A stretch of DNA of 39,684 bases from a virus. Of this stretch, positions 6,467 to 39,684 are shown one piece after another. Location: the IMG/VR virus record IMGVR_UViG_3300028840_004609, positions 1 through 39,684 of that record; one strand, written 5' to 3'. The first letter of the stretch is position 1; each line of letters opens with the position of its first letter. Both the position numbers and the translations under genes were made by a program. The notes beneath the pieces were generated by a model that saw only the letters and a list, made by a program, of their open reading frames with translations, was not told the DNA's origin and did no database searches.

Positions 6467-9400
6467 ATGCCTGAAATAAGATCATTGCACGAAAAGACAG
6501 GTATAAACATTCATGGGAATAATCTAACTCTTCCTTCGGGCTCTGCTGTAGCAGTTGAAAACTGGAAATGCATAAGAGATAATGTTTATACAAAAGTAAG
6601 AGGTAGGGCAGCATATGGATCTGGGCTGCCTTCTCAAAACATAGCTCAACTTCTTCAATATCAAGATAGATTGATCTGTCATATGGGAAATAGTACTTTG
6701 TATTATGACAGTGATGGGTCAGGGACATTCTCTCAAATCACAGGAACATACACTGTCCCTGAAACTAACTACAAGATCCAAGGATTAGAATTACAAAGTA
6801 ATCATTATATAACTACTGGGTCAGGAATATATAAATCAGATACTTTGGGAAGTCAGTATATAGCAACAGGGGCACCAAAAGGTCTTAGTTTTGATACTAG
6901 GATTATAGATTCTATAAACTGGCTAACAAATGGATATACGGTTTCATATAGAGTAGTTTGGTCTATAGAGGATAATAATAATAACATAGTTGATGGAGCT
7001 CCAAGTGAAAGACAAGATATCACAAATAGTGCTGGGGCGGATAGAGCAGTTGAATTAAGAATTTATATTCCTACATCAGTTACTACTAGTTATTATTGCA
7101 AGGTATATAGATCTAGTCAAAATACAGGTACCCCTCCTGAAGATTACCAACTGGTATATCAAGCTAGACCTACTTCAGCAGAAATTTCATCTGGAATACT
7201 AGAATTTAATGACATTCTTGCTGATGATTGGAGAGGAGCTTCGCTATATACAAATACGACACAAGAGGGCATAGAAAACTCTAATGAAAGACCTCCGTTG
7301 TCTAATTCAATAACTAGCTTTAAAGGATACACATTCTTTGGTAATATAGAGAATAAGCAGAGATTATATACAGCATTAATTTCCACCACAAATCTAACTT
7401 CAGGGACTAGTACCATTACCATAAATAATGGTACTAATTCCATCGTATTCGGTTGCTATGCATTTACTACTAATATAGGTTCAGGGATAACCGGGGCAGC
7501 AGATAACGGAGGTGGTTTAGTACGTATTACCACTTCAGGAAATCATGGACTTTCAACCGATGATTGTATTAATATAACTGGTGTAGCTGGAACCACCGAA
7601 GCTAATGGGGATTGGACTATCACCGCTGTGGCAGGAACCACATTTGATTTGCAAGGCTCTGCATTTGCAAACCCATATACATCTGGTGGAACCGTTGATC
7701 TTCGAATCAATAATTTAGGCGCAGGGGTGGCGGGAGCTGCGGATAATGGCGCTGGGTTGATCCGAATTACGACAAGTAAGAATCATGGTCTCACTACAGG
7801 AGACTATGTAAGAATATACGATGTAACGGGGACAACTGAAGCAAATGAAACGTGGCAAGTCACTGCAATTGCTGCTACCACATTTGACTTGGTCGGATCG
7901 ACTTTTAGTAACGCATATGTCTCAGGGGGGACGGTTGACTTATATGAAGACTACGGGGCTACGCCACGATTCTTGCTATATAAAACCGCCAATCAGGGCA
8001 CGGATGCGCAAAACATTGCGAAGACTGCGCAATCGTTGGTTCGGACTATTAATTTGTGTACTTCTAATACTTTCTGGGATGGCCATTATAATTCTAGTGG
8101 CACAGATCCTGTGGGTAAAATGGAAGTTGATGCTAAGTCATTAGGTGCAGCAGCGTTCTATTTAACAGCAAACTCTACAGCAACCGGCGGTTGCTTTGGT
8201 CCTACCATGCCTACTTCAGGCACAACATACATCTCAACAAATGACGACTTTCAACATGCCATAATGTGGTCAAAAGCTGACCAACCTGAAGCTGTCCCAT
8301 TAATTAACATAAAAAAAATAGGTAGTGCAGATGACCCAATTCTTAAAGTAGTAGGTCTTAGAGACTCTTTGTTTGTTATTAAGAAAAAAGACGGGGTTTG
8401 GAGACTTACCGGAGAGTCTGAAACATCATGGAACTGGGATGAATTTGATGGAACAGTTGAATGTATTCAAAAGAATTCAATAGTTAAGGGTGAAAACGCT
8501 ATTTATATGATGACCTCTTCTGGATATGCAAAAATAAGTGATGTTGGGGTTGAAATTATAGGTAGAGATAACGAGAAAAATGATTTAAGGCCGGTTAAAG
8601 TATCAGGGTTTGATAATGACGGATATGCTTGGTACTATGATTCTGAAAAAGCATATAAGATTGCTACCTACCTAGATCAAGATTCTACCTCAAATGATAT
8701 AGTTAAGGAATATAACGTATTTACACTTGCATGGACACAAAGAAAGTTTGGTGTCTACACCAATGATACTCACGTTTCGATGGGGGTAGTTGTAAATGAT
8801 ATTGAATATACGGCACCACTGACAGGCAATGGATTGTTAAAGGAAAGAAAAGACTTAGCTACTACAGACTACACTCTCCCTGACATATCAAATACTATTA
8901 CTGCAATAGACATTACAAATAAATCAGTAACTTTAGGCACTAATATAACTATTCATAATGATGCGATGCTAACACAGGGAGCACTAACTAAGATAGTAAC
9001 TTCTTTTGATACTACATCAAGCGTGACTCTGTCGAGTGTAACTTCTCTCCATGCAAACGTTAATTTGAATGTAAGTACTTGTGCTGATAATGGATCCGGT
9101 TTGATACGAGTTACTACAACTGCCGCTCATAGTCTTTCTACATATAATGGCATAACAATTGCATCAGTTACCGGAACCACTGAAGCTAATGGAGACTGGG
9201 TTATAACTGTTATAGATGCGACTAACTTTGATCTAATAGGAAGTACATTCACTAACGCATATACTGCCGGGGGTACAGTTACCAACGCTATAACAATTAA
9301 GCCTGGAATATATAGTAGATTAAAGTATCAAATAATTCATTGTGGTTACCCTGAATACGAGAAGTTTCATGACAAGGTTACCATTTTCATGGATGATGAC

Positions 9401-9685
9401 GAGACATCTATTAGTAAATTATATATTAATACAACTACTGATGCTGACAAGACAGCGGTAACTACTACAGTAGATGAGACATCTAATAGTTTATGGGAAG
9501 GTATTTGGTTGGGAGACTGGGGTGATAGACGAATAACAGACAAGGCATTGATACTAGTCCCTGATGAGCATTCTAGAGGAAGTCATATTTACTTAGATAT
9601 AATTCATGCTATGCCTCAACAAAGAATAGACTTGAATGGGTATAGTTTAATTTTCGATATTGTTGATAGTCGTTATCAAAACTAG
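6467..9685 (+). CDS. Tail nozzle / packaged-DNA stabilisation-like protein with inserted repeat modules
   Basis: This 1072-residue protein is probably the tail nozzle that closes the portal channel, as in P22 gp10-like or T7 gp12-like proteins. The N-terminus describes a repeating beta-propeller-like pattern. Residues about 600-720 (SADDPILKVVGLRDSLFVIK, then GVWRLTGES and IYMMTSSGYAKISD) match nozzle-type proteins. Three inserted copies of a 65-75-residue module lie at residues about 340-416, 421-493 and 871-939. Each reads H-G/S-L-S/T-T then GTTEAN and ends with GGTV. Copies 1 and 2 use more GC-rich codons than the flanks. The start is four bases after the previous stop, with only a weak Shine-Dalgarno sequence. 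Confidence 0.7.
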   Translation: MPEIRSLHEKTGINIHGNNLTLPSGSAVAVENWKCIRDNVYTKVRGRAAYGSGLPSQNIAQLLQYQDRLICHMGNSTLYYDSDGSGTFSQITGTYTVPETNYKIQGLELQSNHYITTGSGIYKSDTLGSQYIATGAPKGLSFDTRIIDSINWLTNGYTVSYRVVWSIEDNNNNIVDGAPSERQDITNSAGADRAVELRIYIPTSVTTSYYCKVYRSSQNTGTPPEDYQLVYQARPTSAEISSGILEFNDILADDWRGASLYTNTTQEGIENSNERPPLSNSITSFKGYTFFGNIENKQRLYTALISTTNLTSGTSTITINNGTNSIVFGCYAFTTNIGSGITGAADNGGGLVRITTSGNHGLSTDDCINITGVAGTTEANGDWTITAVAGTTFDLQGSAFANPYTSGGTVDLRINNLGAGVAGAADNGAGLIRITTSKNHGLTTGDYVRIYDVTGTTEANETWQVTAIAATTFDLVGSTFSNAYVSGGTVDLYEDYGATPRFLLYKTANQGTDAQNIAKTAQSLVRTINLCTSNTFWDGHYNSSGTDPVGKMEVDAKSLGAAAFYLTANSTATGGCFGPTMPTSGTTYISTNDDFQHAIMWSKADQPEAVPLINIKKIGSADDPILKVVGLRDSLFVIKKKDGVWRLTGESETSWNWDEFDGTVECIQKNSIVKGENAIYMMTSSGYAKISDVGVEIIGRDNEKNDLRPVKVSGFDNDGYAWYYDSEKAYKIATYLDQDSTSNDIVKEYNVFTLAWTQRKFGVYTNDTHVSMGVVVNDIEYTAPLTGNGLLKERKDLATTDYTLPDISNTITAIDITNKSVTLGTNITIHNDAMLTQGALTKIVTSFDTTSSVTLSSVTSLHANVNLNVSTCADNGSGLIRVTTTAAHSLSTYNGITIASVTGTTEANGDWVITVIDATNFDLIGSTFTNAYTAGGTVTNAITIKPGIYSRLKYQIIHCGYPEYEKFHDKVTIFMDDDETSISKLYINTTTDADKTAVTTTVDETSNSLWEGIWLGDWGDRRITDKALILVPDEHSRGSHIYLDIIHAMPQQRIDLNGYSLIFDIVDSRYQN

Positions 9686-12717: not shown

Positions 12718-13797
12718 ATGGCAGAATACAAAATAGATCCATATGAGTTACAAATGAAAGCTTTAACTCAAATGGCACAAGCGCAAAATACAGCACAAGA
12801 GAGAAAAGCTAATTTAGGTACACAAGCACAAATGATGCGACACCTTGGTAGTTTTGCTGATGTTGCATCAAGACCTGTTATAACACAAGCGGAGATCATG
12901 GCAAAACAAACACCTAAGTCTCCGGGGTTAGGTCAAGGTTGGCAGGAAGCTGCGCAAGGTTTAGAGACTAGAGGAGCAGAAGACTACCAAGGTTTACTTG
13001 ATAAGTATAAGATGCAAAATCAAATGGCAACTACTCTAGCTAGACTGAAAGAAATAGAAGAGGAGAAGAAGGACAGAGCTTTAAAACGAAGATTTATGGA
13101 AGCTCAAATTAGTTCCGAACAAACTAAGGCACAAAATGTTCTACCTAAACTAACCAAAGGCCAAGAAAAGGTTGATACTGAGTTTGGACAAGAATGGGCC
13201 AAGTTTAAGACATTAGGCGGTAGTACTGTAATTGATAAAAACTTAAGTCAGCTTCAAAAAGTATATGATGCACTAGATGCCAAAGTTAAAGGAGTTAAGG
13301 ATGCTCCATCTATCTCCGGCCCATGGTTGGGGAAGATACCTGATCAATTGAAGTCTATATACGCCCCTGAGGCTGTAAATATTCAAGAATTAGTAGCAGA
13401 AGTAGCGCAAGGAAACTTAAGACAAGTATTAGGTGGTCAATTTGCTCAAAAAGAAGGAGAGCAATTAATTAAGAGAGCTTTCAACCCTGAATTAGATGAA
13501 TCAGTTAATAGAGAAAGAGTGGGGAGATTAATAGCACAAATTAAGAAAGCTTCGCAAGCAAAAATAGATGCTGGAAGAGTCTTTGATGCTCAAGGTACTC
13601 TATCTGGATACAAAGGGCCGTTATACCAAAACATAGAATCTGACGAAGAGAGACCGAAGGGAAGAAGTCTTTTGAATAATATTATTCCTGAAGCACAAGC
13701 GGCACCTATGGAAGTGATTAAGCCATATAAGGGAAAAAGATATCGATTGAAACCAGGGGCAGACCCTAAAAAGAAAGAAAGTTGGGAGGTGATGTAA
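12718..13797 (+). CDS. Probable internal virion protein
   Basis: This 359-residue, mainly helical protein starts at ATG 12718 behind AGGAG. The body (about 60-280) is rich in Lys, Glu and Gln. The C-terminus holds a compact GKRYRLKPGADPKKKESWEV motif of the kind seen at the ends of phage internal proteins. Its stop (TAA 13795-13797) shares one base with the next ATG, so the two are coupled. Function is inferred from location. Confidence 0.6.
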   Translation: MAEYKIDPYELQMKALTQMAQAQNTAQERKANLGTQAQMMRHLGSFADVASRPVITQAEIMAKQTPKSPGLGQGWQEAAQGLETRGAEDYQGLLDKYKMQNQMATTLARLKEIEEEKKDRALKRRFMEAQISSEQTKAQNVLPKLTKGQEKVDTEFGQEWAKFKTLGGSTVIDKNLSQLQKVYDALDAKVKGVKDAPSISGPWLGKIPDQLKSIYAPEAVNIQELVAEVAQGNLRQVLGGQFAQKEGEQLIKRAFNPELDESVNRERVGRLIAQIKKASQAKIDAGRVFDAQGTLSGYKGPLYQNIESDEERPKGRSLLNNIIPEAQAAPMEVIKPYKGKRYRLKPGADPKKKESWEVM

Positions 13798-15662
13798 TGC
13801 CTGATTTAGCACCTTGGGAAGAAGCACAAGCTTCAGATTTAGCACCTTGGGAAGAAGCGCAAGCTTCAGATGGTGGCAAAGACTATGAGGAAGTAATGCA
13901 CCCAGCAATTACTTTCAAAGAAAGAGCGCTTGCAAAGAACTTATCTCAATCACCTGAGGCAACTGTTAGGTATCTGACTCAAGAGCATCCGGAATTAGAG
14001 GTTAAAACAGACGGCAAACGTTATTTTATAAAAGATAAGGGAAAAGAAGGGAAATTTAAGGTTTTAGATCCAGACACAGGAATGATCTCCAAGGATATTA
14101 TTGGAGACATAGCTGACATTGGTTGGGATATCTTGTCTGGGGGAGTAGAAACTGCCGCTGGGATAGGTGGAGCATTAGGTGGTGCTGCGGCAACTCCATT
14201 TATCGGAGGAGCGGGCGCAATTCCTGGCGCGATGGCAGCGAGTAGTGCAACTACTGCTGGGATGGAAGCGGCAAGACAAAAGATTGGTCAACTAGCTGGA
14301 ATCCCTCAAGAGGTTAGCGGAACAGATGTTGCAATATCAGGTGGTATTGGAGCTGTATCTCCTTTATTGTTTGGAACAGGAGCTGGTGCTGGGCAACTAG
14401 CAAAGGCCGGAGTTAAAAAAGGTATAGCTAAATTTGGAGAAAAGGGGGTAGGAGGATTAGCGAAGGAAGGAGCTGGAAGATTAATGGGAGGAGCTTATGA
14501 TGTAGTGGCAAAACATATTCCAGCGAAAGCTGCGGAAGTAATGAGTGGTATCAGTAGTAAAGTCTACAAGGATTATATTGAAAACCCAGCTATTATTAAG
14601 CAAATTGATAAAGCTAAGGGGATGGCAGGATATGCTGAAACTAAGTTAAGAAATTTTTATGATAAGTTGAATGCTACCAAAAAGAAGATAAGTACTGATT
14701 ATGATCAACTTCAAAAAGCAGATATAGATATAGATATTAGCAATGTTAAAAATCAATTAATAGATTTAAGAAATTCTATTGCTCAAGGGCAGAAAACAGA
14801 AGGATTAAATAAAGATCAAATTAAATTAGTTTCTGATTTAGATAAGATGTATAAAGATCTTTTTGAAGTTACAGTACAAAAAACTAAAGGGAAGGGTAAG
14901 ACTGGGAAAATTGTTAAAGAGGAACTTGGGGATCAGGTTAAAGCTAAGAAAGTATTAGAACTTAAAAAGATTCTTAAAAAATACGAGGAAGGATATAAGG
15001 ATATTACGCGATCTAATAAAAGTGCGTTTGATAAAACAGTAGTTACTAAAGCTAGGGGATTGAATGCAGAATTGAGCAATCAATTAGAAAAGAAGATTCC
15101 CAATGCAGGAAATATTGCTGATGCTTGGGGTGATGTTTTAGATGATTATGAGTTTTTAGAAACAGAATTAAAAAATAAAATGAGCTATGACCCTAAATTT
15201 AGAAAGGAACATGTTTTTGACAAGAAGGGAAAAAAATATCTTAAGGGTGCAAGCATTGATTCGGAAGAGGGTGCTGATAGATTGCTTAGATTACAAGAGA
15301 TGGATCAGAAATATGGAACTGATTTGACTAAGACATCAAATATGTTGAAATCATATGATCAGTTAAGAAAAGCTCCTACATGGCCGTTGTCTGGGGGCGC
15401 TACTTCTACTACTAGAACATTGGGTGGTGCTGCGTTGGGAGGTCTTGCTGGGTCACAAGCAGGCGAGGGGTATCCTGTTTTAGGTACAGCTTTAGGAGCT
15501 ATTGGTGGTAGTCCTAAAATATGGAAGGGTGCATTGATGACAGGACAAGCACCAAGACGAATGATGGATTTTCTAGGAGAGAAACAATTCTTATCTCCAT
15601 ATATGAAACAAACAGGTGTAAGGACAGGGATAGAAACACTCAAGCCGAGAGAGAGGGAATAA
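13797..15662 (+). CDS. Large probable ejection protein with glycine-zipper segment and N-terminal repeat
   Basis: This 621-residue protein is taken from ATG 13797 (overlap TAATG, Shine-Dalgarno GGGAGGTG) and not the upstream in-frame TTG at 13782. Residues about 3-25 are two perfect copies of DLAPWEEAQAS. Residues about 105-160 form a Gly/Ala-rich membrane-active stretch (GGALGGAAATPFIGGAG). Residues about 260-470 are a long Lys/Glu coiled-coil region. A second Gly/Ala-rich patch lies near 540-575. Size, last place in the series and the glycine zippers suit a channel-forming DNA-ejection protein. No lytic transglycosylase motif is seen. Confidence 0.65.
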   Translation: MPDLAPWEEAQASDLAPWEEAQASDGGKDYEEVMHPAITFKERALAKNLSQSPEATVRYLTQEHPELEVKTDGKRYFIKDKGKEGKFKVLDPDTGMISKDIIGDIADIGWDILSGGVETAAGIGGALGGAAATPFIGGAGAIPGAMAASSATTAGMEAARQKIGQLAGIPQEVSGTDVAISGGIGAVSPLLFGTGAGAGQLAKAGVKKGIAKFGEKGVGGLAKEGAGRLMGGAYDVVAKHIPAKAAEVMSGISSKVYKDYIENPAIIKQIDKAKGMAGYAETKLRNFYDKLNATKKKISTDYDQLQKADIDIDISNVKNQLIDLRNSIAQGQKTEGLNKDQIKLVSDLDKMYKDLFEVTVQKTKGKGKTGKIVKEELGDQVKAKKVLELKKILKKYEEGYKDITRSNKSAFDKTVVTKARGLNAELSNQLEKKIPNAGNIADAWGDVLDDYEFLETELKNKMSYDPKFRKEHVFDKKGKKYLKGASIDSEEGADRLLRLQEMDQKYGTDLTKTSNMLKSYDQLRKAPTWPLSGGATSTTRTLGGAALGGLAGSQAGEGYPVLGTALGAIGGSPKIWKGALMTGQAPRRMMDFLGEKQFLSPYMKQTGVRTGIETLKPRERE

Positions 15663-19447: not shown

Positions 19448-19600
19448 ATGAATTTTATGATAAGTAAGGAATTGTTAGAAAAATTGATTAGCTATTTAGC
19501 ACAACAGAAGTTTCATGAAGTAGCTAACTTAATGAAGGCATTAGGGACATTAAAACAAATTAAAGAGGTGCCTAAAGAAGAAGATAAAGTAAAAGAATAA
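19448..19600 (+). CDS. Small helical phage protein, 50 residues
   Basis: ATG 19448 lies behind AGGA at 19438-19441, ten bases after the stop of the previous gene. The product reads MNFMISKELLEKLISYLAQQ and continues helical to a charged Lys/Glu tail. The LLEKLISYLAQQKFHEVANLM pattern resembles small conserved phage proteins of unknown function. It is the last gene before the hairpin at 19647. Confidence 0.6.
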   Translation: MNFMISKELLEKLISYLAQQKFHEVANLMKALGTLKQIKEVPKEEDKVKE

Positions 19601-19646
19601 CATAATACGGATAGACTGGGGTTACGGCTTTACCTATTCGACCTGT

Positions 19647-19697
19647 AGGAGAAATCTGAATTCAGGAATTCAAGACTCTCCTTCAGTTTAACTTTTT
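19647..19697 (+). terminator. Two-tier hairpin and T-run before the beta-helix gene
   Basis: AGGAGA (19647-19652) pairs with TCTCCT (19677-19682), and inside it TGAATT (19657-19662) pairs with AATTCA (19667-19672) around CAGG. The sequence TTTAACTTTTTTT follows. It could end the upstream operon or act as a leader element, since the next Shine-Dalgarno sequence (GGAGGAGGG) begins immediately after the T-run. Confidence 0.55.
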
Positions 19698-19714
19698 TTG
19701 GAGGAGGGATCCAA

Positions 19715-22009
19715 ATGAGTAATGGATATAAGCATTATGCTGGATTGCAAGGAACAAAAATCAAGACGGTTGGGAGTGACGCTGACGCATATCAATACAC
19801 CAATCTTGAAACGGCAATTGCCGCATCACAGGCAAACGATGTAATCATTATAGATGATGGCACGTATTCGTTAACAGCAACAAATACCATTAATTATAAT
19901 TTGACTATGATTGGTAGAGGTAACGTTGCTGTAAATTGCGGAACTACAGGAATTGCAACTCGTGGTTTCATGTTAAATAAACCCGCTGCCGGAACAGCAA
20001 ACACTTTAATTACATTTGAAAACATTGCATTTTCTAACGCTCATGCTACAGGTGATGTGTTTGAGATAGACACAGACGGCGGAGCTACCGGGGATATGAA
20101 GGTAGTGTTTAAGGACTGCTCTATAGATGCTGGCGCATCTGCTGTTTCTGTCGATTTAGATCACACTACAGCGACTATCAATCTTTACTTGGAAGTTTAC
20201 GGTAGAGGTGGTTTGACACTAGATAGTATGAACCTAGCTCTTGCTAAAGCGGCTTCACATGTTTATATCGAAGGGTATGACATGAGTGCTTCAGCTTCAA
20301 CGTTTACGCTAGGAACAGGAGACGTTGCTTCAATTTATCAATTCAGAGATTGTATTTTCGGCAGTGCTGCAATTACTACAGGTGGAGCTGCAAGTGTACT
20401 AGTTAGTGCTATCAACTGTGTTAACGAAACTGCAAACGTTCAAAGACAACTAGTTGATGGTGACTTTGATCATACTGGTGTTTTAACAATATCAGATGGA
20501 AGTCAAGCAGGTAACGTTAAATTGATAGTTGGCGCTACTGGAATTACTGAATACTACAATACATTTGAACTAGCTAAAGCTCAAGCAGTAGCTGGGGATA
20601 CTATTGTATTGGGATCAGGTAGTCATACTATTGCTGCAGCAGTAACTTTAAACTTTAACATTACTGTTAGAGGTGAAGGACAATGTACAGTAACTGGTGC
20701 GGTTGCTGATCGACTTTTCATGCTTAACAAACCGGCAACTGGAACTTCAGCTACATACATGGAGTTTGAGAATATTGACTTTGTGAATACAAATAGTTCT
20801 GCTGATATTTTTGAAGTGGACAACGATGGGGCAGGAACCGGAAACCTTGAAATCTTGTGGCGTAATTGCTCTTTCACTGCTGGTGCGACTGGGCTTGCAA
20901 TAGATTTAGACCAAACTACAAATACAATTGATGTTCACGCTAGAGTAATAGGTCATTATGGATTAGCGTTTGATAGTTGTAACTTTGCCTTGTCTAAGGC
21001 AGGCTCAACTGTTTGCGTTGATGGATATGACTTAAGCTCAGGACATACTATAGCGCTAGGAACAGGAGACGTTGCTTCTATTTACACATTTAGAAACTTA
21101 ATCTATGGTTCAGCTGCAAGTATTTCAGGTGGAGCTGCAAGTGTTTTAATGAACCATGTAAACTGTGTTAATGAAACTGCTGGAACATATCAATCATTAC
21201 TTTATGGTGACTTGGATGCTACAGGTACAGAAGTTATCTTAGGTGGTGCTTATGTTTCACCAGTTGTTCACTTAGTAGGTCAATCAGGAGTAGGCGCTCC
21301 ATACGCAACTTTAAACGCCGCAGTGACTGCGGCAGTAGCTGGGGATATAATTGAACTAGAGCCTGGCACACATACAGTAACTACAGATGCGACCATGACT
21401 CTTAATAAGAATATTACTATCAGAGGGAAAGGAAGATGTGTTGTTACTGGTGCGGTTGCTGATCGTATGTTTATGATAAATAAACCTGCGACAGGAACTT
21501 CTGCTACTTATGTTAAGTTAGAGAATTTAAAAATAACAAATAGTACGGCAAGTGCGGACATAGTGGAAATCGATAATGATGGTGGAGGAACTGGTGCGCT
21601 TTACGTAGATATTATCAATTGCTCTATGTCTACAAATTCGGGGCTTTCAATCGATTGTGATCAGACTACAAATACAATTGACGAATTCATTTATGTTAAA
21701 GGTAACTTAAGCGAAGACATGGCAATGGACGGAATGAATTTTGATATATCTAAAGCTGGAAGCGAAGTCTTTTTAGATAACGTTAGATTTAATGCAGCAG
21801 TTATAGCGCTAGGAACTACAAATGTTGCGTGGATTATGTCTATGAAGGACTGCTTGTACGAATCTGAAGCGATGATGACAGGAGGTTCTGCATCTGTGAT
21901 TGTTAACTTGTGGAACTGTATTAGAAATAACGCTGGAACTTATGAAATTCCTGCAGCGGGTGACTTTGATCAGACTTCAGCTAGTGAACAAATACTACCA
22001 GCATCTTAG
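19715..22009 (+). CDS. Triplicated pectin-lyase-like beta-helix protein
   Basis: This 764-residue protein is made of three modules of about 250 residues (starting near 1, 267 and 517). Each opens with an AYATL..A...A..GD-I-L-GTHT pattern typical of right-handed parallel beta-helices, then carries NKPATGTSATY, EIDNDGG and DQTTNTID-type blocks. The ATG follows GGAGGAGGG closely. No catalytic carboxylates can be assigned, so it may be a structural spike, a decoration protein or a polysaccharide-binding tailspike. It shares its opening (YKHYAGL versus YTHYAGL) with the next gene, which is a one-module paralogue. It is probably transcribed apart from the upstream cluster because of the hairpin at 19647. 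Confidence 0.7.
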   Translation: MSNGYKHYAGLQGTKIKTVGSDADAYQYTNLETAIAASQANDVIIIDDGTYSLTATNTINYNLTMIGRGNVAVNCGTTGIATRGFMLNKPAAGTANTLITFENIAFSNAHATGDVFEIDTDGGATGDMKVVFKDCSIDAGASAVSVDLDHTTATINLYLEVYGRGGLTLDSMNLALAKAASHVYIEGYDMSASASTFTLGTGDVASIYQFRDCIFGSAAITTGGAASVLVSAINCVNETANVQRQLVDGDFDHTGVLTISDGSQAGNVKLIVGATGITEYYNTFELAKAQAVAGDTIVLGSGSHTIAAAVTLNFNITVRGEGQCTVTGAVADRLFMLNKPATGTSATYMEFENIDFVNTNSSADIFEVDNDGAGTGNLEILWRNCSFTAGATGLAIDLDQTTNTIDVHARVIGHYGLAFDSCNFALSKAGSTVCVDGYDLSSGHTIALGTGDVASIYTFRNLIYGSAASISGGAASVLMNHVNCVNETAGTYQSLLYGDLDATGTEVILGGAYVSPVVHLVGQSGVGAPYATLNAAVTAAVAGDIIELEPGTHTVTTDATMTLNKNITIRGKGRCVVTGAVADRMFMINKPATGTSATYVKLENLKITNSTASADIVEIDNDGGGTGALYVDIINCSMSTNSGLSIDCDQTTNTIDEFIYVKGNLSEDMAMDGMNFDISKAGSEVFLDNVRFNAAVIALGTTNVAWIMSMKDCLYESEAMMTGGSASVIVNLWNCIRNNAGTYEIPAAGDFDQTSASEQILPAS

Positions 22010-22897: not shown

Positions 22898-23215
22898 TTA
22901 ATATTTACATGCTCTGTGTATAGTAGATTTAGAACAGTTATAATATTTAAGTATTTCTCTGACTTTAAATCCATTTTTTCTCATTTCTTTTACTTCTTCT
23001 ATTTGTGCTTTTGATAATTTTTGATTAGGATGATAGAAATCAATTCTTTTTTTAGCTATTAAATTATTTGAGTCTCCATCTACTTTTCTTTCAGATTTAA
23101 GAATTCTTAGAATTGTAGATTTATTTACATTAAAAATTTTTGAGATATTTTTAGCACTTTCTCCTTTTGAATATAGATCCATGACTTTTAACGCATCATT
23201 CTTACAAATTTTCAT
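22898..23215 (-). CDS. Double helix-turn-helix DNA-binding protein
   Basis: This 105-residue protein starts at ATG 23215 behind an excellent AAGGAG. Two HTH units of the resolvase/transposase type are visible: residues about 6-40 (SAKNISKIFNVNKSTILRILK) and about 67-105 (VREILKYYNCSKSTIHRA). There is no catalytic domain. It could be a repressor or activator acting on the 57-base divergent region at 23216-23272, or a left-over DNA-binding part of a mobile element. The two repeats suggest binding to paired sites. Confidence 0.7.
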   Translation of the reverse strand: MKICKNDALKVMDLYSKGESAKNISKIFNVNKSTILRILKSERKVDGDSNNLIAKKRIDFYHPNQKLSKAQIEEVKEMRKNGFKVREILKYYNCSKSTIHRACKY

Positions 23216-23272
23216 GTAATTCTCCTTGTTAATGTAGTTATTAATAAGTATATTTCAGTCAAGGAGGTGCAT
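23216..23272. promoter_or_regulatory. Divergent control region
   Basis: These 57 bases separate two genes that start in opposite directions and hold both Shine-Dalgarno sequences plus AT-rich sequence (TTAATAAGTATATTT). They must supply promoter elements in both directions or at least upstream leaders. No exact promoter match can be assigned by eye. Confidence 0.4.
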
Positions 23273-23551
23273 ATGAGTGAAAAACACGATATTAAGAATA
23301 TAAAGGAAGTGGTTGCCCTAATGTTTGCTGTTGCAGGGCCTATTCTCAGGGAAGTTCAAAAGGATGGCTTCCAGTGGACGGATTTATTGTCCTTTATAGG
23401 AGATAAGCACTTTCAGGAATGTATTCTTCCTGCTGTAACAGACATAAGCAAGGTTCCGGAAGAGATAAAAGACTTTGACTGGGCGGAAAGCGCAGAATTA
23501 GTTGCTTTTATAGTATCCGAGACGAAGAAGATGTTTATATCTATGTATTAG
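23273..23551 (+). CDS. Small hypothetical phage protein
   Basis: The start is ATG 23273 behind AAGGAGG; the in-frame GTG at 23267 lies within that signal. The 92-residue product is acidic and helical, with a hydrophobic stretch near residues 13-22 (VVALMFAVAG) and a QWTDLLSFIGD segment. It stands alone as a rightward gene among leftward ones, and its stop overlaps the end of the gene at 23548 on the other strand. No function is recognised. Confidence 0.65.
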   Translation: MSEKHDIKNIKEVVALMFAVAGPILREVQKDGFQWTDLLSFIGDKHFQECILPAVTDISKVPEEIKDFDWAESAELVAFIVSETKKMFISMY

Positions 23552-23798: not shown

Positions 23799-23996
23799 CT
23801 ACTCCTTATCCTTGTATGCATATTTTTTCATTTGTTTTATTTCTAGCACTCGCATTTTTGCGGGTGCAACGATAGATTCGATTTTATCTATAGCATCTCT
23901 ATGATTTTCTGCTTCTATTATTAGATCGAAATCAACCCAATAAGTCAGTTGTTCTTTTTGAGTCAATACTTGTATTTTTACTTTGTATTTATTCAT
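23799..23996 (-). CDS. Small MNKY-family protein, copy 2
   Basis: This 65-residue paralogue of the gene at 23548 starts at ATG 23996, inside the last codons of the upstream gene (eight-base overlap), so translation is coupled. Shared features are the MNKY start, an early beta strand, the IEA(S/E)N segment and a basic amphipathic helix. Function is unknown. Confidence 0.6.
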   Translation of the reverse strand: MNKYKVKIQVLTQKEQLTYWVDFDLIIEAENHRDAIDKIESIVAPAKMRVLEIKQMKKYAYKDKE

Positions 23997-24150
23997 CTAA
24001 TGACTCTCCTGACAACTGTATAGCTAATCCATTATGATCAACCGAGATTATGTCGTCTACAATACCTAGTCCATTGATTTCTGCTGCTATTATCACAGGT
24101 TTATCGGGGTCTTCTTTTTGTAGCAATTTAATTAATTCTTTTACTTTCAT
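23989..24150 (-). CDS. Small conserved-type phage protein (MKVKELIKLLQ)
   Basis: This 53-residue protein starts at ATG 24150 behind AAAAGG. The opening MKVKELIKLLQKEDPDKPV, followed by strand-forming INGLGIVDDI, matches a frequent type of small phage protein that starts with K-E-L-I-x-L-L-x-x-x-D-P. The function of that group is not known to me. Its end overlaps the next start. Confidence 0.65.
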   Translation of the reverse strand: MKVKELIKLLQKEDPDKPVIIAAEINGLGIVDDIISVDHNGLAIQLSGESLDE

Positions 24151-24272
24151 AAATTACCTTTTTTAATATATTTAAATTATAACCTATTTTATAATAATTG
24201 TCAATTATTAAATATTAAAATATTCAAAATTTTAAATATTTCACATATTTTCAAACAAAAATAGTTTAAATT
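24151..24272. other. Very AT-rich intergenic stretch
   Basis: These 122 bases are almost all A/T (TTAAATATTAAAATATTCAA type) and lie upstream of the leftward gene at 24150. They probably contain its promoter and could end transcription from 24273. No specific element can be assigned. Confidence 0.4.
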
Positions 24273-24557
24273 CTAGCCTAGAACGTCAGAATTATGACTT
24301 TTATGGGTATTTTGAAAGTAAATTTGTTTAGAAACGAGCAATTCTAGGTCTACTCTCTTTTTTCTCATGGAGAGTAGCTTAGCTAAACTGGCTATTTTTG
24401 TACCCAATATAGCTAGTTCTACAAATGGGCCTATTGTAGGGATAGAGACGTCTGGGGTCTTGAACTTAGTAATATCGGATATAAGGGCATCTATTTGTTT
24501 AACGGATAACCCTCCCTTGGTATATCTAGTATAGTCAAAGGAAAATTTTTCTGACAT
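24273..24557 (-). CDS. Hypothetical protein divergent to the sigma factor
   Basis: This 94-residue protein starts at ATG 24557 behind AGGAGGAG. It has a polar N-terminus, a predicted helix-strand middle (LSVKQIDALISDI), and a moderately hydrophobic helix (residues about 45-67, FVELAILGTKIASLAKLLSM) followed by a basic segment. Only 68 bases separate its start from that of the FliA-like sigma gene, so they may be regulated together. Its size is near that of FlgM-type anti-sigma factors, but I see no convincing motif match. Confidence 0.6.
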   Translation of the reverse strand: MSEKFSFDYTRYTKGGLSVKQIDALISDITKFKTPDVSIPTIGPFVELAILGTKIASLAKLLSMRKKRVDLELLVSKQIYFQNTHKSHNSDVLG

Positions 24558-24625
24558 TTCTCCTCCTTTTATGAAGTTATTTTAATCCGTTGCTTGTTAA
24601 AAGGATAGGGTGTATTTATTAAAGC

Positions 24626-25345
24626 ATGAATAAATATAATGGGTATTCGGAAGGAATTTCTAAGAATAACAGAGAGAAAGCGATCTTAAACTACCTGCCT
24701 CTTGTTAAGAAAATAATTAGGAAAATGAATGCTGGGTTTTTGCCAAGAGAAAAAATAGAAGACCTGGTTTCTGCTGGTGTTGAGGGGTTGATAAATGCGG
24801 TAGATAACTTTGACCCTATAAACGGACACTTTTATTTGTATGCAGAAATAAGGATAAAAGGAAGCATAGTTGACTATTGGAGGAAGCAAGACACGATAGG
24901 AAGATATACTAGAATATATCTCAAAAAGATAATAAACTACATAGACTCAAGAAGGAAGATATCAACTGACCCTATTTCCGAAGAAGATTTATATAGACAT
25001 TTAGGCTTAAGTCGAAAGCGTTTTTGCAATGTGATGAAGACGATTGGGAAAGCTGATATTACATACTATGCAGATAGATATTCTTGTTATGAAAGTGTTG
25101 ACCCAGTTACTTCTGTAGGGGCAAAAATTTTAAAAGAAATAGTGTTAAAGGAAATAGAAAAACTAGAACCCAAACAAAGAAAAATTATACTTTTATTATT
25201 CTATGAAAACAAGACAAGCATTGAACTTACCAAGATTTTCAATCTAACTGAAGGAAGAATATCTCAATTAAGGAAGATTGCGCTTAGTAAGTTAAAACGA
25301 AGACTACTACCTCATATACAATATGAGAATCAATTACTTCTTTGA
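24626..25345 (+). CDS. FliA/WhiG-type sigma-70 family factor
   Basis: This 239-residue protein should bind host core RNA polymerase and direct it to alternative promoters. Region 2 spans about residues 18-90, with LPLVKKII, the DLVSAGVEGLINAVDNFDP core-binding helix and the YAEIRIKGSIVDYWRKQD segment that is diagnostic of FliA-type factors. Region 3 spans about 93-145. Region 4 spans about 172-228, with the HTH LTKIFNLTEGRISQLRKIAL. Length matches FliA. It is transcribed rightward against the leftward arm, and its 3' end overlaps the endolysin gene by 16 bases. The start ATG lacks a strong Shine-Dalgarno sequence. I could not find a clear FliA-type promoter (TAAA with GCCGATA) in the intergenic regions, so its target promoters are unknown. 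Confidence 0.9.
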   Translation: MNKYNGYSEGISKNNREKAILNYLPLVKKIIRKMNAGFLPREKIEDLVSAGVEGLINAVDNFDPINGHFYLYAEIRIKGSIVDYWRKQDTIGRYTRIYLKKIINYIDSRRKISTDPISEEDLYRHLGLSRKRFCNVMKTIGKADITYYADRYSCYESVDPVTSVGAKILKEIVLKEIEKLEPKQRKIILLLFYENKTSIELTKIFNLTEGRISQLRKIALSKLKRRLLPHIQYENQLLL

Positions 25346-25854
25346 GAATGTCTCATAGCACAGTGTATATAATAATCAGTAATTACTGTAACTGGGAAAT
25401 ACTTGTTACATGTATTTATAAGATAATTTTTATCTACTAGACCTACTGGCAATAGGATATCTACGGCCTCACCTGTTAGATGGCACGAACGATCTGCTCC
25501 TTTTACTTTTTTATTATGAGTATAAGTTCTATATGCAGATGTTAGTTTTATCGGGGCATTATAAGTAGATCGAACACCATCCAAACAAATCAGGAGATGT
25601 AGATTTAAAATGATTACGGGGCTTTCATCTTTACAAGCAAATTCTTCTAGATAAAAGTGCTCAATGATTCTTTTTTTTTGATTCTGCTCATCCATGAAAA
25701 ACACTAAGTTTTCACAGCCTTCTTTAAAGTCTACCAACGGAGTTTTCAAAGGACGTACTTTAAGTACATTTTTGTACTGCTCTACCCAATTCATATAATC
25801 TTTTGCTGATTGGGATAGGTCAAAGTTCGTCTTTAAGCTTACCCTTGATTCCAT
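25330..25854 (-). CDS. M15-family peptidase, probable endolysin
   Basis: This 174-residue protein is a zinc D,D- or D,D/L,D-peptidase that would cut peptidoglycan cross-links at lysis. Residues about 67-78 (YLEEFACKDES) match the F-EF-CKD segment of this family. The zinc ligands are read as H125 and D132 in HLTGEAVDI, and H164 in YYIHCAMR. The catalytic region is complete. ATG 25854 is behind GGAG and overlaps the lipoprotein gene by 35 bases. There is no signal peptide, so export would need a holin. It is the last gene of the leftward operon. Confidence 0.8.
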   Translation of the reverse strand: MESRVSLKTNFDLSQSAKDYMNWVEQYKNVLKVRPLKTPLVDFKEGCENLVFFMDEQNQKKRIIEHFYLEEFACKDESPVIILNLHLLICLDGVRSTYNAPIKLTSAYRTYTHNKKVKGADRSCHLTGEAVDILLPVGLVDKNYLINTCNKYFPVTVITDYYIHCAMRHSQRSN

Positions 25855-26503
25855 AATAAGATCTCCTCATGTTTTTAGTCTCTACTACTGCAAATTGTAT
25901 TTCAGAATCATGTTCTAAGTAAGTTTTCTTATTAAGGTAGTACCATTTATTCTTGGTTTTTACTTTTGCGGAATAGGCATGTTCACCCAACACAAGGAAG
26001 TTGCCTTTTTTATAAGTGGTAGTGTATACTTCAGAGGGTTTAATATAAGAATCTTTGTGTAACCTAATTCTTGCTTCAAAAAAAGAACTAGCATTATTGC
26101 CTCTGTCTTGGGGATAGATATCACCTATGCAATTTAAATATCGTTGATCTTTTAGCATATCTTCGGATATTGTAAACACCACTTCATCTTTTTTTAAGAC
26201 ATCTATTATTTTTTCAAAAACTATTCCTTGAATATTCCCACAACGAAAATCTAATTTATAAGCATAAGGTTGTTTCAGCAACTTAAAATTCAGAGGCATG
26301 CTTTCATCATGCTTGTAAGCACACAGCCCTACGCTTCCTGTCATATCAACACAGGGTTTATTGTTGATCAACACAAAATAATCCGGATAATTTGCTTCAC
26401 CAGGAGAAAGAAATGCCAAATCGTCTTTGTATTCTAATTGGTTACAGCTAAAACTTAATAAAATAGTTGTAACCAGAAACATTATTTTGATGTAGTGGAA
26501 CAT
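25820..26503 (-). CDS. Predicted lipoprotein upstream of the endolysin
   Basis: This 227-residue protein starts at ATG 26503 behind GAGGTG. The N-terminus is a lipoprotein signal: a basic start, a hydrophobic core (IMFLVTTILL) and a lipobox LSFSC, which predicts lipid-anchored Cys20. The mature part is soluble and beta-rich, with several Cys residues (CVDM, LCAY, RCGN, NCIG), as in an oxidised extracytoplasmic domain. Overlap with the endolysin suggests a lysis role (an outer-membrane spanin-like part) or superinfection exclusion. It is much longer than typical Rz1 spanins, so neither is certain. Confidence 0.65.
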   Translation of the reverse strand: MFHYIKIMFLVTTILLSFSCNQLEYKDDLAFLSPGEANYPDYFVLINNKPCVDMTGSVGLCAYKHDESMPLNFKLLKQPYAYKLDFRCGNIQGIVFEKIIDVLKKDEVVFTISEDMLKDQRYLNCIGDIYPQDRGNNASSFFEARIRLHKDSYIKPSEVYTTTYKKGNFLVLGEHAYSAKVKTKNKWYYLNKKTYLEHDSEIQFAVVETKNMRRSYYGIKGKLKDEL

Positions 26504-32909: not shown

Positions 32910-33217
32910 CAGGGGAAAGAATTAAACGGGTTGATCTTATTGAAGGGTTCAATTGGAGGGACGATCTCATGCCAAAGATATATGCAAAATTATTAAAAGA
33001 ACTCCCTACAGATGTAAGTGTATATAAAGTTGCTGAAAGCCCGATAACTAATACTTTCCATGTATATTTAACTTGCTCAAATTGGGACATTATTACAAAA
33101 CTTGGAGATATTCCAGTTATTAGCATACAACTCAATGAAGACAGTCTTGACACGTTAGAATTTAGAAAAATATTGCGATTACATAACAAATATGAATTAT
33201 CCCAATCTCTATCATAA
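32906..33217 (+). CDS. Hypothetical protein between terminase genes
   Basis: This 103-residue protein starts in an ATGA overlap. It mixes helix and strand (FNWRDDLMPKIYAKLLKEL, then TFHVYLTCSNWDIITKL) with no known motif. Its last 26 bases overlap the large terminase start, so translation is coupled. A packaging accessory role is possible. Confidence 0.6.
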   Translation: MTGERIKRVDLIEGFNWRDDLMPKIYAKLLKELPTDVSVYKVAESPITNTFHVYLTCSNWDIITKLGDIPVISIQLNEDSLDTLEFRKILRLHNKYELSQSLS

Positions 33218-34580
33218 CGGCATCATAGCAAGTTGGTATCTTAAAAAATCTCAAATGAAATTCTATGAGATGCTACTAAAAGAAAAGCTGGTTGTAGCTA
33301 AATGTCATAGACGTTTCGGTAAGGGTACTACTGTTCTAACTTATGTAGCAGAGAGATGTCTTAAAGAGAATATTATTGTTAGATACGGAGCGGAAACACA
33401 AGGTCAAGCATATCAAATCTTTGACTTCTTAATGGGAAAGATATTCTACAAATGTCCTGACATGAAGCCTAGACTTAGAAACGGACACTATGAATTTAAG
33501 TCAGGATCTAGAATATATATCTTTGGAGTTAAAGACTCAGGAGAAATTGACAAGGCAAGAGGAACTGAAGCTCATATAATCATTCTAGACGAGTATGGTT
33601 TTTGGAGATTTAAAGCTGAATACATTCTTAAATCTATCTTATTACCTCAGCTTATGAATACCAAAGGGCAGGCGTTGATTACATCGACACCGCCAGAAGA
33701 TTTGACTCACGATTATGTTAATCAAGTAATTAAAGCAGAAAAGGGAGGATATCTATTCAACTGGACTCTCCAAGACTCTGTAAACATAGGTGAAAAAACA
33801 GAGAAAGAAAAGCAAGACATTATCGATGATTGCGGTGGAGAAGATTCTGTTCACTACCAACGTGAGTACATGTGTAATCTTATTCCTACCAAGGAAAGAC
33901 TGGTTATCCCTGAGGCACAAGATGAAGAGTTGTATGTAGGTAAGATGGACAGACCACCACACGTAGAGTTTTATGTTTGTATGGATCTAGGTCTTATTGA
34001 TCATACTGCTGTGCTTTTTGGGTACCTAGACTTTAAAAATTCAAGATTGGTAGTAGAGGATGAATACTGGGCAAACTATAACTCAACTGCCGAGATAGTA
34101 GAAGCGTGCAAAATCAAAGAAAAAAAACTTAAGATGCACGAGATATATAGGCGCATCGGAGACTGTGAAAGACAGCAGCTATGGGATATGTCCAATGATC
34201 ATGGTTATCCGGTAGCACCCATCATTAAGCGCTCTAAACAGTCAGGGAAAGGCTTCAGAGACTCTGTGATTAATCAGCTTAGAGTCGGCATAAAAGAAGG
34301 AAAATTACTTGTAGACCCTGATGGATGTCCCAACACAGTTAGACAACTCAAATATGGTATCTGGAATGAGCGTAGAACTGACTTTGAAAGAACAGAGACT
34401 ATGGGGCACTTAGATGCCTTGATGTCTGTCTGCTATATGTTTGATAACATCTCGTGGGACAGAAACCCATATCCAAGCATGTACCATAAATTAAGAGAAT
34501 CGGACTCCTATATAAATATTGAAGAATTAAGAAACAGAGATAAACAAAGACACGGCCTAAAAAAGCTGACAGGAAGATAG
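33192..34580 (+). CDS. terL: Large terminase subunit
   Basis: This 462-residue motor packages phage DNA into the prohead. The N-terminal ATPase shows a Walker A-like CHRRFGKGT (38-46), Walker B IIILDE (129-134) and the STPP coupling motif (165-168). The C-terminal RNase H-like nuclease shows D265 in YVCMDLGLIDH, an acidic residue near 323-325 (GDCE) and D408 in GHLDAL. Length is normal for a short terminase. The ATG lacks a strong Shine-Dalgarno sequence and relies on overlap with the upstream gene. The Arg-rich Walker A variant HRRFGKG suits podovirus terminases. Confidence 0.93.
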   Translation: MNYPNLYHNGIIASWYLKKSQMKFYEMLLKEKLVVAKCHRRFGKGTTVLTYVAERCLKENIIVRYGAETQGQAYQIFDFLMGKIFYKCPDMKPRLRNGHYEFKSGSRIYIFGVKDSGEIDKARGTEAHIIILDEYGFWRFKAEYILKSILLPQLMNTKGQALITSTPPEDLTHDYVNQVIKAEKGGYLFNWTLQDSVNIGEKTEKEKQDIIDDCGGEDSVHYQREYMCNLIPTKERLVIPEAQDEELYVGKMDRPPHVEFYVCMDLGLIDHTAVLFGYLDFKNSRLVVEDEYWANYNSTAEIVEACKIKEKKLKMHEIYRRIGDCERQQLWDMSNDHGYPVAPIIKRSKQSGKGFRDSVINQLRVGIKEGKLLVDPDGCPNTVRQLKYGIWNERRTDFERTETMGHLDALMSVCYMFDNISWDRNPYPSMYHKLRESDSYINIEELRNRDKQRHGLKKLTGR

Positions 34581-35341: not shown

Positions 35342-37279
35342 ATGGCGTACAGCAAATCAAAAAAGGGCTATATTTTCCTTAAAAAGGGAGATGAGCTCGC
35401 AGCAGAATTAAGTTCTAAAGTAGAAGACTTTCAAGAATACATCCTGAAAAGCGGTATTCATTCGCAGTGGATTAAAAATCAAAGATTCTACGAAAACGAA
35501 TTCTATAACACCGATAAAAGCAGAGACATATCAGATGCCGGAGCTGTTGGAGAGTTAAAAGCGGCCTCCTTCAATCACTTTAGAAATGTTCTAAGGCATA
35601 TGTTAAATCAATTGACAGCTATAACTCCTGCATTCGATGTTAGTGCCTCCAATACAGATGTAGCTTCGAGAAGAGCTGCAAAGATTGGTAAGGACATAGT
35701 CAATTATTACTTCAAAGTCAAAAGAACATCTCGTTATACAAAAAAAGGCGCAGAATATGCCTTGGTTTATGGAGATGGCTATCCTGTTTGTGAATGGAAC
35801 CCTTCAATAGGGAGACAGATAACAAGGAGTGAGGATGGACGGCTTATTAGAGAAGGAGATTTTGATTTTGCTTGCATTTCTCCTTTTAACGCTTTCTTTG
35901 ATTGTACGCTAGATGACAAGGATCACCTCGAATGGTTCATATTTAGAAGGAAGAGAAATAAGTATGATCTAGCTAAGATATTTCCTAAAAAAGCAAAAGA
36001 ATTAGTAGCACTATCAAGTTATTACGACACAGATATATATAACAAAAATAGAACAGATGATGAACAACGTAACATAGAGTCCGATAATGTCTATGTGTAC
36101 AGTATGTATCACGTAGCAAACAATTGCTTGCCCAAAGGTAAGTATTGTATGTTCATAAGTAGTGGTACCGAATCTTTCACCTTGTACGAAGGAGATAATC
36201 TATACGGAGAAAAACTTCCTGTATTCAACTTATCACCTGCTAAATATCTAGATACACCTTTTGGATTTACAGAGGCAAATTTACTACGCGGCCCACAAGA
36301 GATTATCAATCTTATGGTCTCTGCTTTAGTAAGTAATGCTTCTGCCTTAAGTGTGAATAACATATGGGCGCCGACTGGTGCTAATTTAAACTTGCAAGAA
36401 CTAACCGATGGTCTGAACTTGATTACAACAGACCATGACAAGAAGCCTGAGGTATTATCGCTATACCAAGATGTCCCAGGTCTTAAAGACTTACTCTTAC
36501 TATGTAACTCGACCATTGAGACTTTGTCGGGGCAAAACGCCGTAGTAAGAGGCAATGTGCAAGATGCCCCGAATCTTAAGTCGGGTATAGCGATTAGTAC
36601 CGTCATAAATATGGCGCAACAGTATTCTCAAGCATTAGAAAAAGCATATATAGAAATGTTTGAGGATATATCTACTTTCTTAATAGAAACTTTACAAAAA
36701 GTTGCAAACACTGAACGGATGATTGATATCACCGGAAAGATGCAAGCAACATCTGTTAATTCATTTACCAAAGAAGATTTACAAGGAGTTAGTAGAGTTA
36801 TCGTTGATCAGACTAACCCGATAACCAAACAACCAGCAGGAAAGATTGAGATAGCTATGGAGCTATTGAAGTTAGGTCATATAACACCAGAAAGATTCTT
36901 TGACGTTGTGAATACAGGGAACCTAGATGTAGCAGTAGAGTCCGATGAAAGGATGCTCGACTTCATATCTAGTGTTAAAGAAAAACTCTTGGACGGAGAA
37001 GTTATACCTCCTATCCCAGGGATAAATCATCAGATGTACATAAAAGAAATACATTCGTTATTGTATGACACTGAAATTCTTAGCAATGAGAATAATCAGC
37101 AAATCATGCAAAACATTGTAACAACTATACAACAGCAATTAGATATTATGCGTAACGGTGATGAGATTGCCAATCTAATTTATGGTGGTAAATCACCAAC
37201 GCCAACAGCTATAAGTCAGGCGGAAATGCAACCGCAAATGCCGCCAAGTTTAAATGCTGCGGGGCAAGTTCCAGTTTAA
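35342..37279 (+). CDS. Portal protein
   Basis: This 645-residue protein forms the ring at the packaging vertex. The start is ATG 35342 behind AAGGAGGGG. Typical portal features are the N-terminal helix region (SKVEDFQEYILKSG, QWIKNQRFYENEF), the FNHFRNVLRHMLNQLTAITP segment, ALVYGDGYPVCEW, the central helix-rich stem (SALVSNASALSVNN, TIETLSGQNAVVRG) and a Gln/Pro-rich C-terminus. Size and place between terminase and scaffold support this strongly. Confidence 0.85.
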   Translation: MAYSKSKKGYIFLKKGDELAAELSSKVEDFQEYILKSGIHSQWIKNQRFYENEFYNTDKSRDISDAGAVGELKAASFNHFRNVLRHMLNQLTAITPAFDVSASNTDVASRRAAKIGKDIVNYYFKVKRTSRYTKKGAEYALVYGDGYPVCEWNPSIGRQITRSEDGRLIREGDFDFACISPFNAFFDCTLDDKDHLEWFIFRRKRNKYDLAKIFPKKAKELVALSSYYDTDIYNKNRTDDEQRNIESDNVYVYSMYHVANNCLPKGKYCMFISSGTESFTLYEGDNLYGEKLPVFNLSPAKYLDTPFGFTEANLLRGPQEIINLMVSALVSNASALSVNNIWAPTGANLNLQELTDGLNLITTDHDKKPEVLSLYQDVPGLKDLLLLCNSTIETLSGQNAVVRGNVQDAPNLKSGIAISTVINMAQQYSQALEKAYIEMFEDISTFLIETLQKVANTERMIDITGKMQATSVNSFTKEDLQGVSRVIVDQTNPITKQPAGKIEIAMELLKLGHITPERFFDVVNTGNLDVAVESDERMLDFISSVKEKLLDGEVIPPIPGINHQMYIKEIHSLLYDTEILSNENNQQIMQNIVTTIQQQLDIMRNGDEIANLIYGGKSPTPTAISQAEMQPQMPPSLNAAGQVPV

Positions 37280-38365: not shown

Positions 38366-39532
38366 ATGTCAACAAACTCGATGACAACTCTGACAGGATA
38401 TTTTAAGACCGCATATGCTGATAGAGTTGAAGATTTAACACCTGATAATGTTTATTACGCTAAAGAGATTCCGGATGTTCCAGCTGATCAACAGCCAGGA
38501 GGAACTTACACACAGCCAGTAACGCTGACCAGTGAGCAAGGAATTACAAAAGCAGCTGCAAGTGCAGGGGCGTTCGCTTTGAACTCTCCAATAGCAATGG
38601 CAACTGGTAACGCTACTATAAACGGATCTCAATTCCTACTTAGGTCAGGTCTTGATTACGAAACTATTTTTAGATCACAGAATAAAAATAGTTTTATCAG
38701 AGCTACTAAGGGTGTTATTAAGAACATGCTTAAGTCTGCATATTTTTATATGGAATCAGATTTAATGTGGGGTACACAAGGTATTGGTACTGTTTCTAGT
38801 GTTTCTACTAACACTATTACTTTAACAACTGCTGAATTTGCAGCTGGACTATGGTTAGGTTCAGAAAACAGAAGACTAAGAATTGAATCTTCTGCTGGTG
38901 TTCTTAGAGGAACTTGTGCTGTGTCTTCATATGACATTGCCGGTAGAACTGTAACAGTTGATTCTGCTCCTGCAGGTTTAACAAGTACAGACGTTATCTA
39001 TTTTGAAGCTGATGGAGCTGCCGGAGCAAACTGTATGACTGGAATTTACGACATACTAACTCCTGCATCAGGCGCTTTCATGGGTATCAACGATAGTACA
39101 TATAGTCTTTGGGCGCCATTAACTGCTTTCGGTGCTGGAAGTGCTCCACTATCTTTCAACAAAATCTTACTTGCTATCGCTGGATCAGTTAACAAAGGTC
39201 TTGGAGATGACATCAAAGAGATTGAAGTTGTAGTTAACCCATTAGCATGGCAAAACTTAGGCAACGACCTTGCTTCACTTAGAGCTATTGATAGTTCATG
39301 GAAATCAGAAGAAGCTACTAATGGCTCTGAAATGATTACCTTCTTCTGTCAAGCAGGGAAAGTTAAAATCATTCCTCATAAAATGATGAAAGAAGGATAT
39401 GCATTTGTACATCCTAAAGCATCAAGATTCTTTGAAAGAGTAGGTTGTCAATCAACTCCAACTTTCAAGTTACCTGGAATGGTAAACGCAGGTGAAGAAC
39501 AATATCTTCGCCCAATGGAAAATAATGCGGGT
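38366..39532 (+). CDS. Major capsid protein, exon 1 (389 residues)
   Basis: This is the shell subunit, starting at ATG 38366 behind AAGGAG. The sequence suits an HK97-fold podovirus capsid protein: N-terminal arm, then SFIRATKGVIKNMLKSAYFY and an inserted beta region (VSSVSTNTITL, TVDSAPAGLTSTD). It continues with IKEIEVVVNPLAWQNLGNDL and a C-terminal VKIIPHKMMKEGYAFVHP region. Exon 1 ends at U39532 after ENNAG, and splicing joins it to exon 2 at 248 for 419 residues in all. Without splicing the frame runs on to TAA at 39560-39562 and replaces the final strand with RRELCPVVA. Confidence 0.88.
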
Positions 39533-39684
39533 AGACGTGAGTTATGCCCGGTGGTTGCGTAAGTAATCACGAGAACTGGGGAAAAAACGGGAACCCTAAG
39601 CCGGAGAAATGGTAAGGGAATCCGAGCGGAAGTCAGAAGTTAACATCTCTGACACGCGCAACGCATAGAGGGTGAACCTAGAAA
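39533..39684 (+). ncRNA. Group I intron in the major capsid gene (5' part)
   Basis: The intron begins after U39532. P1 is CGGGU (39528-39532, exon) with GCCCG (39546-39550, internal guide), and the splice-site U pairs with G39546 as the required U-G wobble. P10 is UUAU (39542-39545) with AUAG at the start of exon 2. Bases from 39551 repeat the window start, so only 39533-39550 (18 nt) are unique to this end. With 1-247 they make 265 nt. Confidence 0.88.
39551..39684. repeat. Terminal direct repeat, right copy
   Basis: This copy is identical to bases 1-134. It lies wholly inside the intron and shows that the two window ends are adjacent in the genome. Confidence 0.95.

Follow-up and report, generated by a model that had tools for sequence, protein, structure and literature searches.

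The window analysed here, by which we mean the whole stretch of DNA, spans the 39,684 bases of a virus record, and a repeat of 134 bases stands at both of its ends (1-134 = 39551-39684). Long virion-type open reading frames (ORFs) lie on the plus strand and a leftward cluster contains SSB and an Erf-like annealing protein; the terminase large subunit was found at 33192-34580, the portal protein at 35342-37279 and the major head protein (MCP) at 38366-39562. The virus had been called a podovirus, which is likely, with the reservation that the P22-like match of the portal is weak (E=1e-5) and under the cut-off. A virion-type protein of 1072 aa (6467-9685) contains three E1_FCCH-like stretches (Pfam PF16190, E=9e-24). 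The locus of interest consists of a sigma factor gene on the plus strand (24626-25345, 239 aa) and a divergent ORF on the minus strand (24273-24557, 94 aa), both at the positions originally given for them. To the right, the 3' end of the sigma gene overlaps a convergent gene for an M15-type peptidase/endolysin (25330-25854, minus strand; Pfam Peptidase_M15_3, E=2.6e-13), and to the left lies an ORF of 53 aa (23989-24150, minus strand). Ahead of the leftward small genes, upstream of 24150, a housekeeping-type promoter (TTGACA-17-TATAAT; 24176-24204, minus strand) matches at 12/12 positions.

That the 239-aa protein is a sigma factor, as the original prediction had it, is beyond chance. It belongs to the sigma-70 superfamily, with region 2 (Sigma70_r2, E=9e-12, 45.1 bits against a cut-off of 24) and region 4 (Sigma70_r4, E=5.5e-10, 39.1 bits against 24.1) both above the curated Pfam cut-offs; the NCBIfam model TIGR02937 scored 92.1 bits (cut-off 42.9), PHROG 351 ('RNA polymerase sigma factor') matched at E=1.2e-25, and the top solved relative was Aquifex FliA (PDB 1rp3, E=2.2e-22). 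A syntenic copy is present in a sister phage, G003, described below. The assignment to the flagellar class held in that this was the best-scoring class, but not as full membership, as the FliA model gave 119.6 bits against a cut-off of 201 and the FliA/WhiG model TIGR02479 gave 118.4 against 189.6. FliA/WhiG was likewise the best NCBIfam class of the G003 sigma, so that TIGR02479, at 133.9 bits there, stayed under its curated cut-off for both proteins. The original description of full regions 2-4 fared similarly: the FliA model aligned across residues 3-227 and an AlphaFold2 (AF2) model built from six sequences, although weak (pLDDT 72.8, pTM 0.40), placed helices between regions 2 and 4, but region 3 had no Pfam match. 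Foldseek searches with this weak model gave TM-scores of 0.3-0.4, with the FliA/WhiG structures 1rp3, 6pfj, 6pfv and 9wsm among the seven best. Judged by its sequence, then, the protein is a divergent FliA/WhiG-like alternative sigma and no textbook FliA; unlike the usual setting of that class, no flagellar genes were noted among the window proteins scanned.

The sister phage (IMGVR_UViG_3300017963_000459; 38,953 bases with a 92-base terminal repeat) was reached via a terminase scan, and 40 of the 53 window ORFs have a tblastn match in it at E<=1e-3. Several virion proteins are closely similar (TerL 87%, portal 82%, MCP 95% and the 1072-aa protein 87% identical), and less alike on the virion side are a 1322-aa protein (58%) and a 626-aa ORF (13782-15662), which has no match. 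The leftward and replication genes are also diverged, with SSB at 59%, the Erf-like protein at 52%, a DnaD-like protein at 47% and the M15 peptidase at 38% (over 120 residues). The sigma is intact in G003, has the same length of 239 aa and occupies the same locus, bounded on the left in both phages by the 53-aa ORF (61% identity) and on the right by the same M15 gene, which the sigma 3' end overlaps in both; yet the two sigmas are only 28% identical over 222 residues, the lowest value among all 40 matched ORFs of the 53 tested. Conservation within the protein is uneven, since by hand count region 2.4 is identical in 11/22 residues and region 4.2 in 7/21. Because region 2.4 is better conserved than the whole protein and region 4.2 less so than region 2.4, it is possible that the two sigmas partly share a −10 element. 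Elsewhere in this comparison, the 227-aa lipoprotein-like ORF of the window (25820-26503) is unmatched in G003, where a similar place (L014:4536-5792) holds a 418-aa ORF that is unrelated, begins like a signal peptide and has no Pfam match, and about 80 non-coding bases ahead of a tail-fibre-like gene (within 19600-19715) are nearly identical in both phages and by eye could form a hairpin.

The comparison also bears on the ends of the two contigs. The reading frame of the MCP ends at 39562 within a non-coding element of which G003 has a nearly identical copy. Part of this element matches DNA in 37 phage records; in the three of these that were inspected, the matching DNA adjoins split MCP/terminase genes or homing/intron endonuclease genes. 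Removal of 39533-39684 together with 135-247 (265 bases, across the contig ends) extends the MCP to 419 aa with a second exon at 248-340, and the spliced C-terminus (GIETRLYWN...IVNATS) resembles that (GIETRVYWN...IVNAS) of a relative more distant than G003, namely G002 (34,119 bases long with a 127-base terminal repeat; its portal is 50% identical to that of the window). In group I introns the upstream exon usually ends with T and the intron with G, and both hold at the predicted junction. It appears that an intron of group I type, 265 bases long and with no endonuclease of its own, interrupts the MCP gene close to the 3' end of that gene; Rfam gave nothing above gathering scores in 112,756 bases, the intron element included. 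As the end repeats of both contigs fall within this intron, they are probably breaks of circular assemblies at a common repeat, not true phage ends.

The divergent 94-aa ORF is preceded by a strong ribosome-binding site (AAAGGAGGAG), and of the six frames its own scores best for codon use; it is therefore probably a gene. The original prediction made it the partner of the sigma, and its small size, its divergent layout and its probable coding capacity would suit a sigma/anti-sigma pair. It nevertheless had no match to FlgM, to another anti-sigma or to any other family in Pfam (E<=1), PHROGs (E<=0.1) or NCBIfam (E<=0.1), no homolog was found in the phage records or the viral contigs, and a single-sequence AF2 model of low confidence (pLDDT 65) consisted of one long helix with no meaningful fold match. 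In G003, the one other such locus known, the 306 bases between a 57-aa gene and the sigma contain no comparable ORF, so that the sigma is kept there and the 94-aa ORF is not. The anti-sigma proposal could thus not be upheld and a pair of this kind is very improbable; the likeliest reading of the 94-aa neighbour, an orphan, is that of an unrelated accessory gene.

The origin of the two sigmas was addressed with a tree of 21 rows, from which the near-duplicate L006 was left out; L029, L030, L032 and L037, which repeat genes of L005-L008, and also L039 were left out. The window and G003 sigmas came out as sisters (support 98/97), both on long branches, on a FliA side that was split from the SigF-type and RpoD-like rows by 99/99. 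By this split and by NCBIfam rank, FliA/WhiG is the nearest class for both, ahead of SigB/F/G and RpoD. When either was removed, the other took no settled position within the FliA side, and the branches are long, so the sister relationship rests on the joint tree together with synteny, equal length and a short linker. This linker, between regions 3 and 4, is 52 residues long in the window sigma and 47 in that of G003, whereas it measures 56-65 in the 15 further FliA-like proteins compared, some of which come from fecal scaffolds (17 rows counted; the outgroup rows MT835851, SBSphiJ4, L036 and L038 were left out). We read these sequences as descendants of one captured FliA-type gene that would have changed fast or been passed between distant phages of the group. 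If two different bacterial FliA genes had been captured independently at a single hot spot, this would also account for proteins that are no more alike (28%) than each is to bacterial FliA-like proteins (27-30%), and the sister grouping does depend on two long branches. Such independent captures are nonetheless unlikely, as they would leave to coincidence the 98/97 of the joint tree, the equal length, the same M15 overlap and the common short linker, and the neighbouring genes are likewise diverged between window and G003 (38-61% identity).

The nearest isolate is a Silvanigrella aquatica phage record (CP017838; portal 23% identical), and neither in it nor in G002 was a sigma detected by protein, Pfam region 2 or TIGR02479 search, the last of which does detect that of G003; none was detected either in G001 (10.7 kb) or G008 (20.4 kb), which are shorter and perhaps fragments. 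The sigma is thus present in two of the three genomes with end repeats, which makes it an accessory gene in part of the phage group, and its apparent absence from G002 and CP017838 means that the virion genes of the broader group need none.

Beyond the group, tblastn with the window sigma matched 10 of 50,697 phage records, all of them unannotated human-fecal scaffolds, and the G003 sigma matched 12, nine of them human-fecal scaffolds with FliA-like sigmas; the others are two Bacillus phages and a 595-kb record of an uncultured phage, matched in part. The sigma of one of these Bacillus phages, SBSphiJ4, groups with a SigF-type row in the tree. The fecal records were considered as further phage examples and rejected: five were fetched, and on the three that were scanned the large neighbours of the sigma were CheA, FapA and FlhA, for which reason we treat these scaffolds as bacterial. 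The records concerned (MT835847, MT837366 and MT835480), labelled 'Bacteriophage sp.', carry a FliA-type sigma next to CheA, FapA or FlhA and are probably bacterial, and by eye MT837854 also has a FapA-like neighbour. Protein queries with the window sigma found no closer relatives in viral_contigs and four distant bacterial relatives in genome_contigs, those with the G003 sigma found G003 alone, and a search with the two-row alignment of both returned G003 again and L049, a phage-like contig in viral_contigs with a sigma of the SigB/F/G (SigF) type. The rarity originally claimed therefore applies to close FliA-type sigmas in phage records, where the matches were the fecal scaffolds, and not to phage sigmas in general; it is limited in this way because tblastn misses very divergent sigmas.

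Three kinds of scan were made for promoters that the sigma might read, and the earlier remark that its targets are not obvious was borne out, as none gave anything firm. With the canonical FliA promoter consensus, the window has 21 sites of at least 10/12, where 20 shuffles averaged 12.9 and reached at most 21; with the same consensus the counts were 11 against a mean of 11.8 in G003 and 16 against 11.9 in G002. The window sites listed are mostly inside genes. Enrichment is thus at best weak in the window and does not occur in G003, and the case for canonical FliA promoters as targets is not convincing, with the window count equal to the shuffle maximum and that of G003 not above its mean. Pairwise comparison of 20 window upstream regions returned only AT-rich matches, ribosome-binding sites and one palindrome (23231-23254, AATGTAGTTATTAATAAGTATATT). 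This palindrome is operator-like and lies between the divergent genes 22898-23215 (minus strand) and 23267-23551 (plus strand), the former a helix-turn-helix gene with no match in G003. In dyad counts the best dyad was equalled in 2/25 shuffles for the window and 10/25 for G003. No shuffle (0/25) reached the best dyad of the pooled set, but this is not firm because the set contains homologous regions of both phages, in which sites common by descent count twice. Neither pairwise comparison nor dyads therefore gave firm repeated sigma-specific promoters ahead of middle or late genes, in a search of low power (about 13 upstream regions). The housekeeping-type promoter beside the locus is a different matter. 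A 12/12 site arose in 3/60 window shuffles, and its conserved position is consequently the better argument, with an 11/12 site at the equivalent place in G003; such a conserved promoter fits reading of the leftward genes by a host sigma.

We consider it probable, at roughly 0.6, that the sigma is a middle/late sigma of the phage that works like gp36 of phiEco32, a reading by analogy. The host RNA polymerase with its housekeeping sigma would read the leftward early genes; the phage sigma would then be made, would bind the host core polymerase and would steer it to the middle and late promoters of the phage, its presumed targets. This is favoured by the homology across regions 2-4, by the intact sigma of the same length at the same locus of G003 despite 28% identity, by the adjoining conserved housekeeping-type promoter and by the position of both proteins on the FliA side of the tree; no phage RNA polymerase was seen among the ORFs scanned, which took in only part of the small ones. 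Against it stand the lack of a repeated promoter motif and the two relatives, G002 and CP017838, that do without a detectable sigma. The transcription switch of the original prediction survives as our best guess in so far as it concerns phage genes, but without the 94-aa protein as its anti-sigma, and the redirection of host motility or development genes that it also foresaw found no support in these data.

The same two difficulties could be turned into arguments that the sigma acts mainly on host genes for motility, development or surface, which proteins of the FliA/WhiG class control in bacteria. An accessory gene carried by the window and G003 and not detected in G002 and CP017838, with no sigma-specific phage promoters in three scans, would suit such a role, which has been proposed for the sporulation-type phage sigmas of spore-former phages; these, according to PMC9429907, seem nonessential for core phage functions. 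The reading of host flagellar promoters, however, should require that FliA-like specificity be kept, and copies that are 28% identical and under the FliA cut-offs make this role rather unlikely. The empty promoter scans, the short linker and the strong divergence might be expected if the protein no longer started transcription, being either a decoy that lowers host transcription by competing for the core polymerase or a gene in decay. This is very doubtful, as both copies are intact, and region 2.4 is better kept than the whole sigma, which suggests that promoter contact still matters.

If the sigma is indeed a middle/late sigma of the phage, its divergence could have a further consequence. 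A flagellar-type sigma captured once might co-evolve with its target promoters at such a pace that the middle/late programmes become mutually unreadable between sister phages whose virions are almost the same. The result would be a regulatory barrier that stops co-infecting relatives from exploiting one another's machinery; we regard this as improbable. In any case, a sigma at 28% beside several virion proteins at 82-95% makes the evolution of promoter specificity directly testable in these sister phages, and the two natural variants at one locus provide test material for the evolution of phage regulators.

Among bacterial sigmas the nearest comparison is with the FliA/WhiG (sigma-28) group, represented by Aquifex FliA (1rp3), Bacillus SigD and WhiG, which is the top class of both phage proteins, with which both align collinearly across regions 2-4 and on whose side of the tree both fall, whereas they differ in their scores under the curated cut-offs and in the shorter region 3-4 linker. 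Phage sigmas as such are already known. According to PMC3594737, host sigma reads the early genes of phiEco32 and gp36 its middle and late genes, and PMC4331800 describes the sigmas of the podoviruses phiEco32 and 7-11 as acting with the host core polymerase. If our reading is right, the window sigma resembles these in function; they belong to much larger phages (~77-90 kb), and phiEco32 also has a separate inhibitor of host transcription, gp79, of which no counterpart was seen. T4 gp55 and SPO1 gp28/gp34, described in PMC9429907 as middle or late phage sigmas essential for infection, would be of the same kind in other phage groups and are set beside ours by description. The sporulation-type (SigF/G) phage sigmas treated in the same paper, of which L049 provides an example, are likewise phage-carried and have regions 2-4, but FliA/WhiG, and not SigB/F/G, is the class in which the sigmas of the window and of G003 score highest, and the tree separates the two types at 99/99. 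In the literature searched, from which subscription journals were largely absent, we found no report of a FliA/WhiG-type sigma in a phage of about 40 kb. The sigma described here varies on the known phage sigmas in being FliA/WhiG-like, carried by a ~40-kb phage, fast-diverging and short in its linker.
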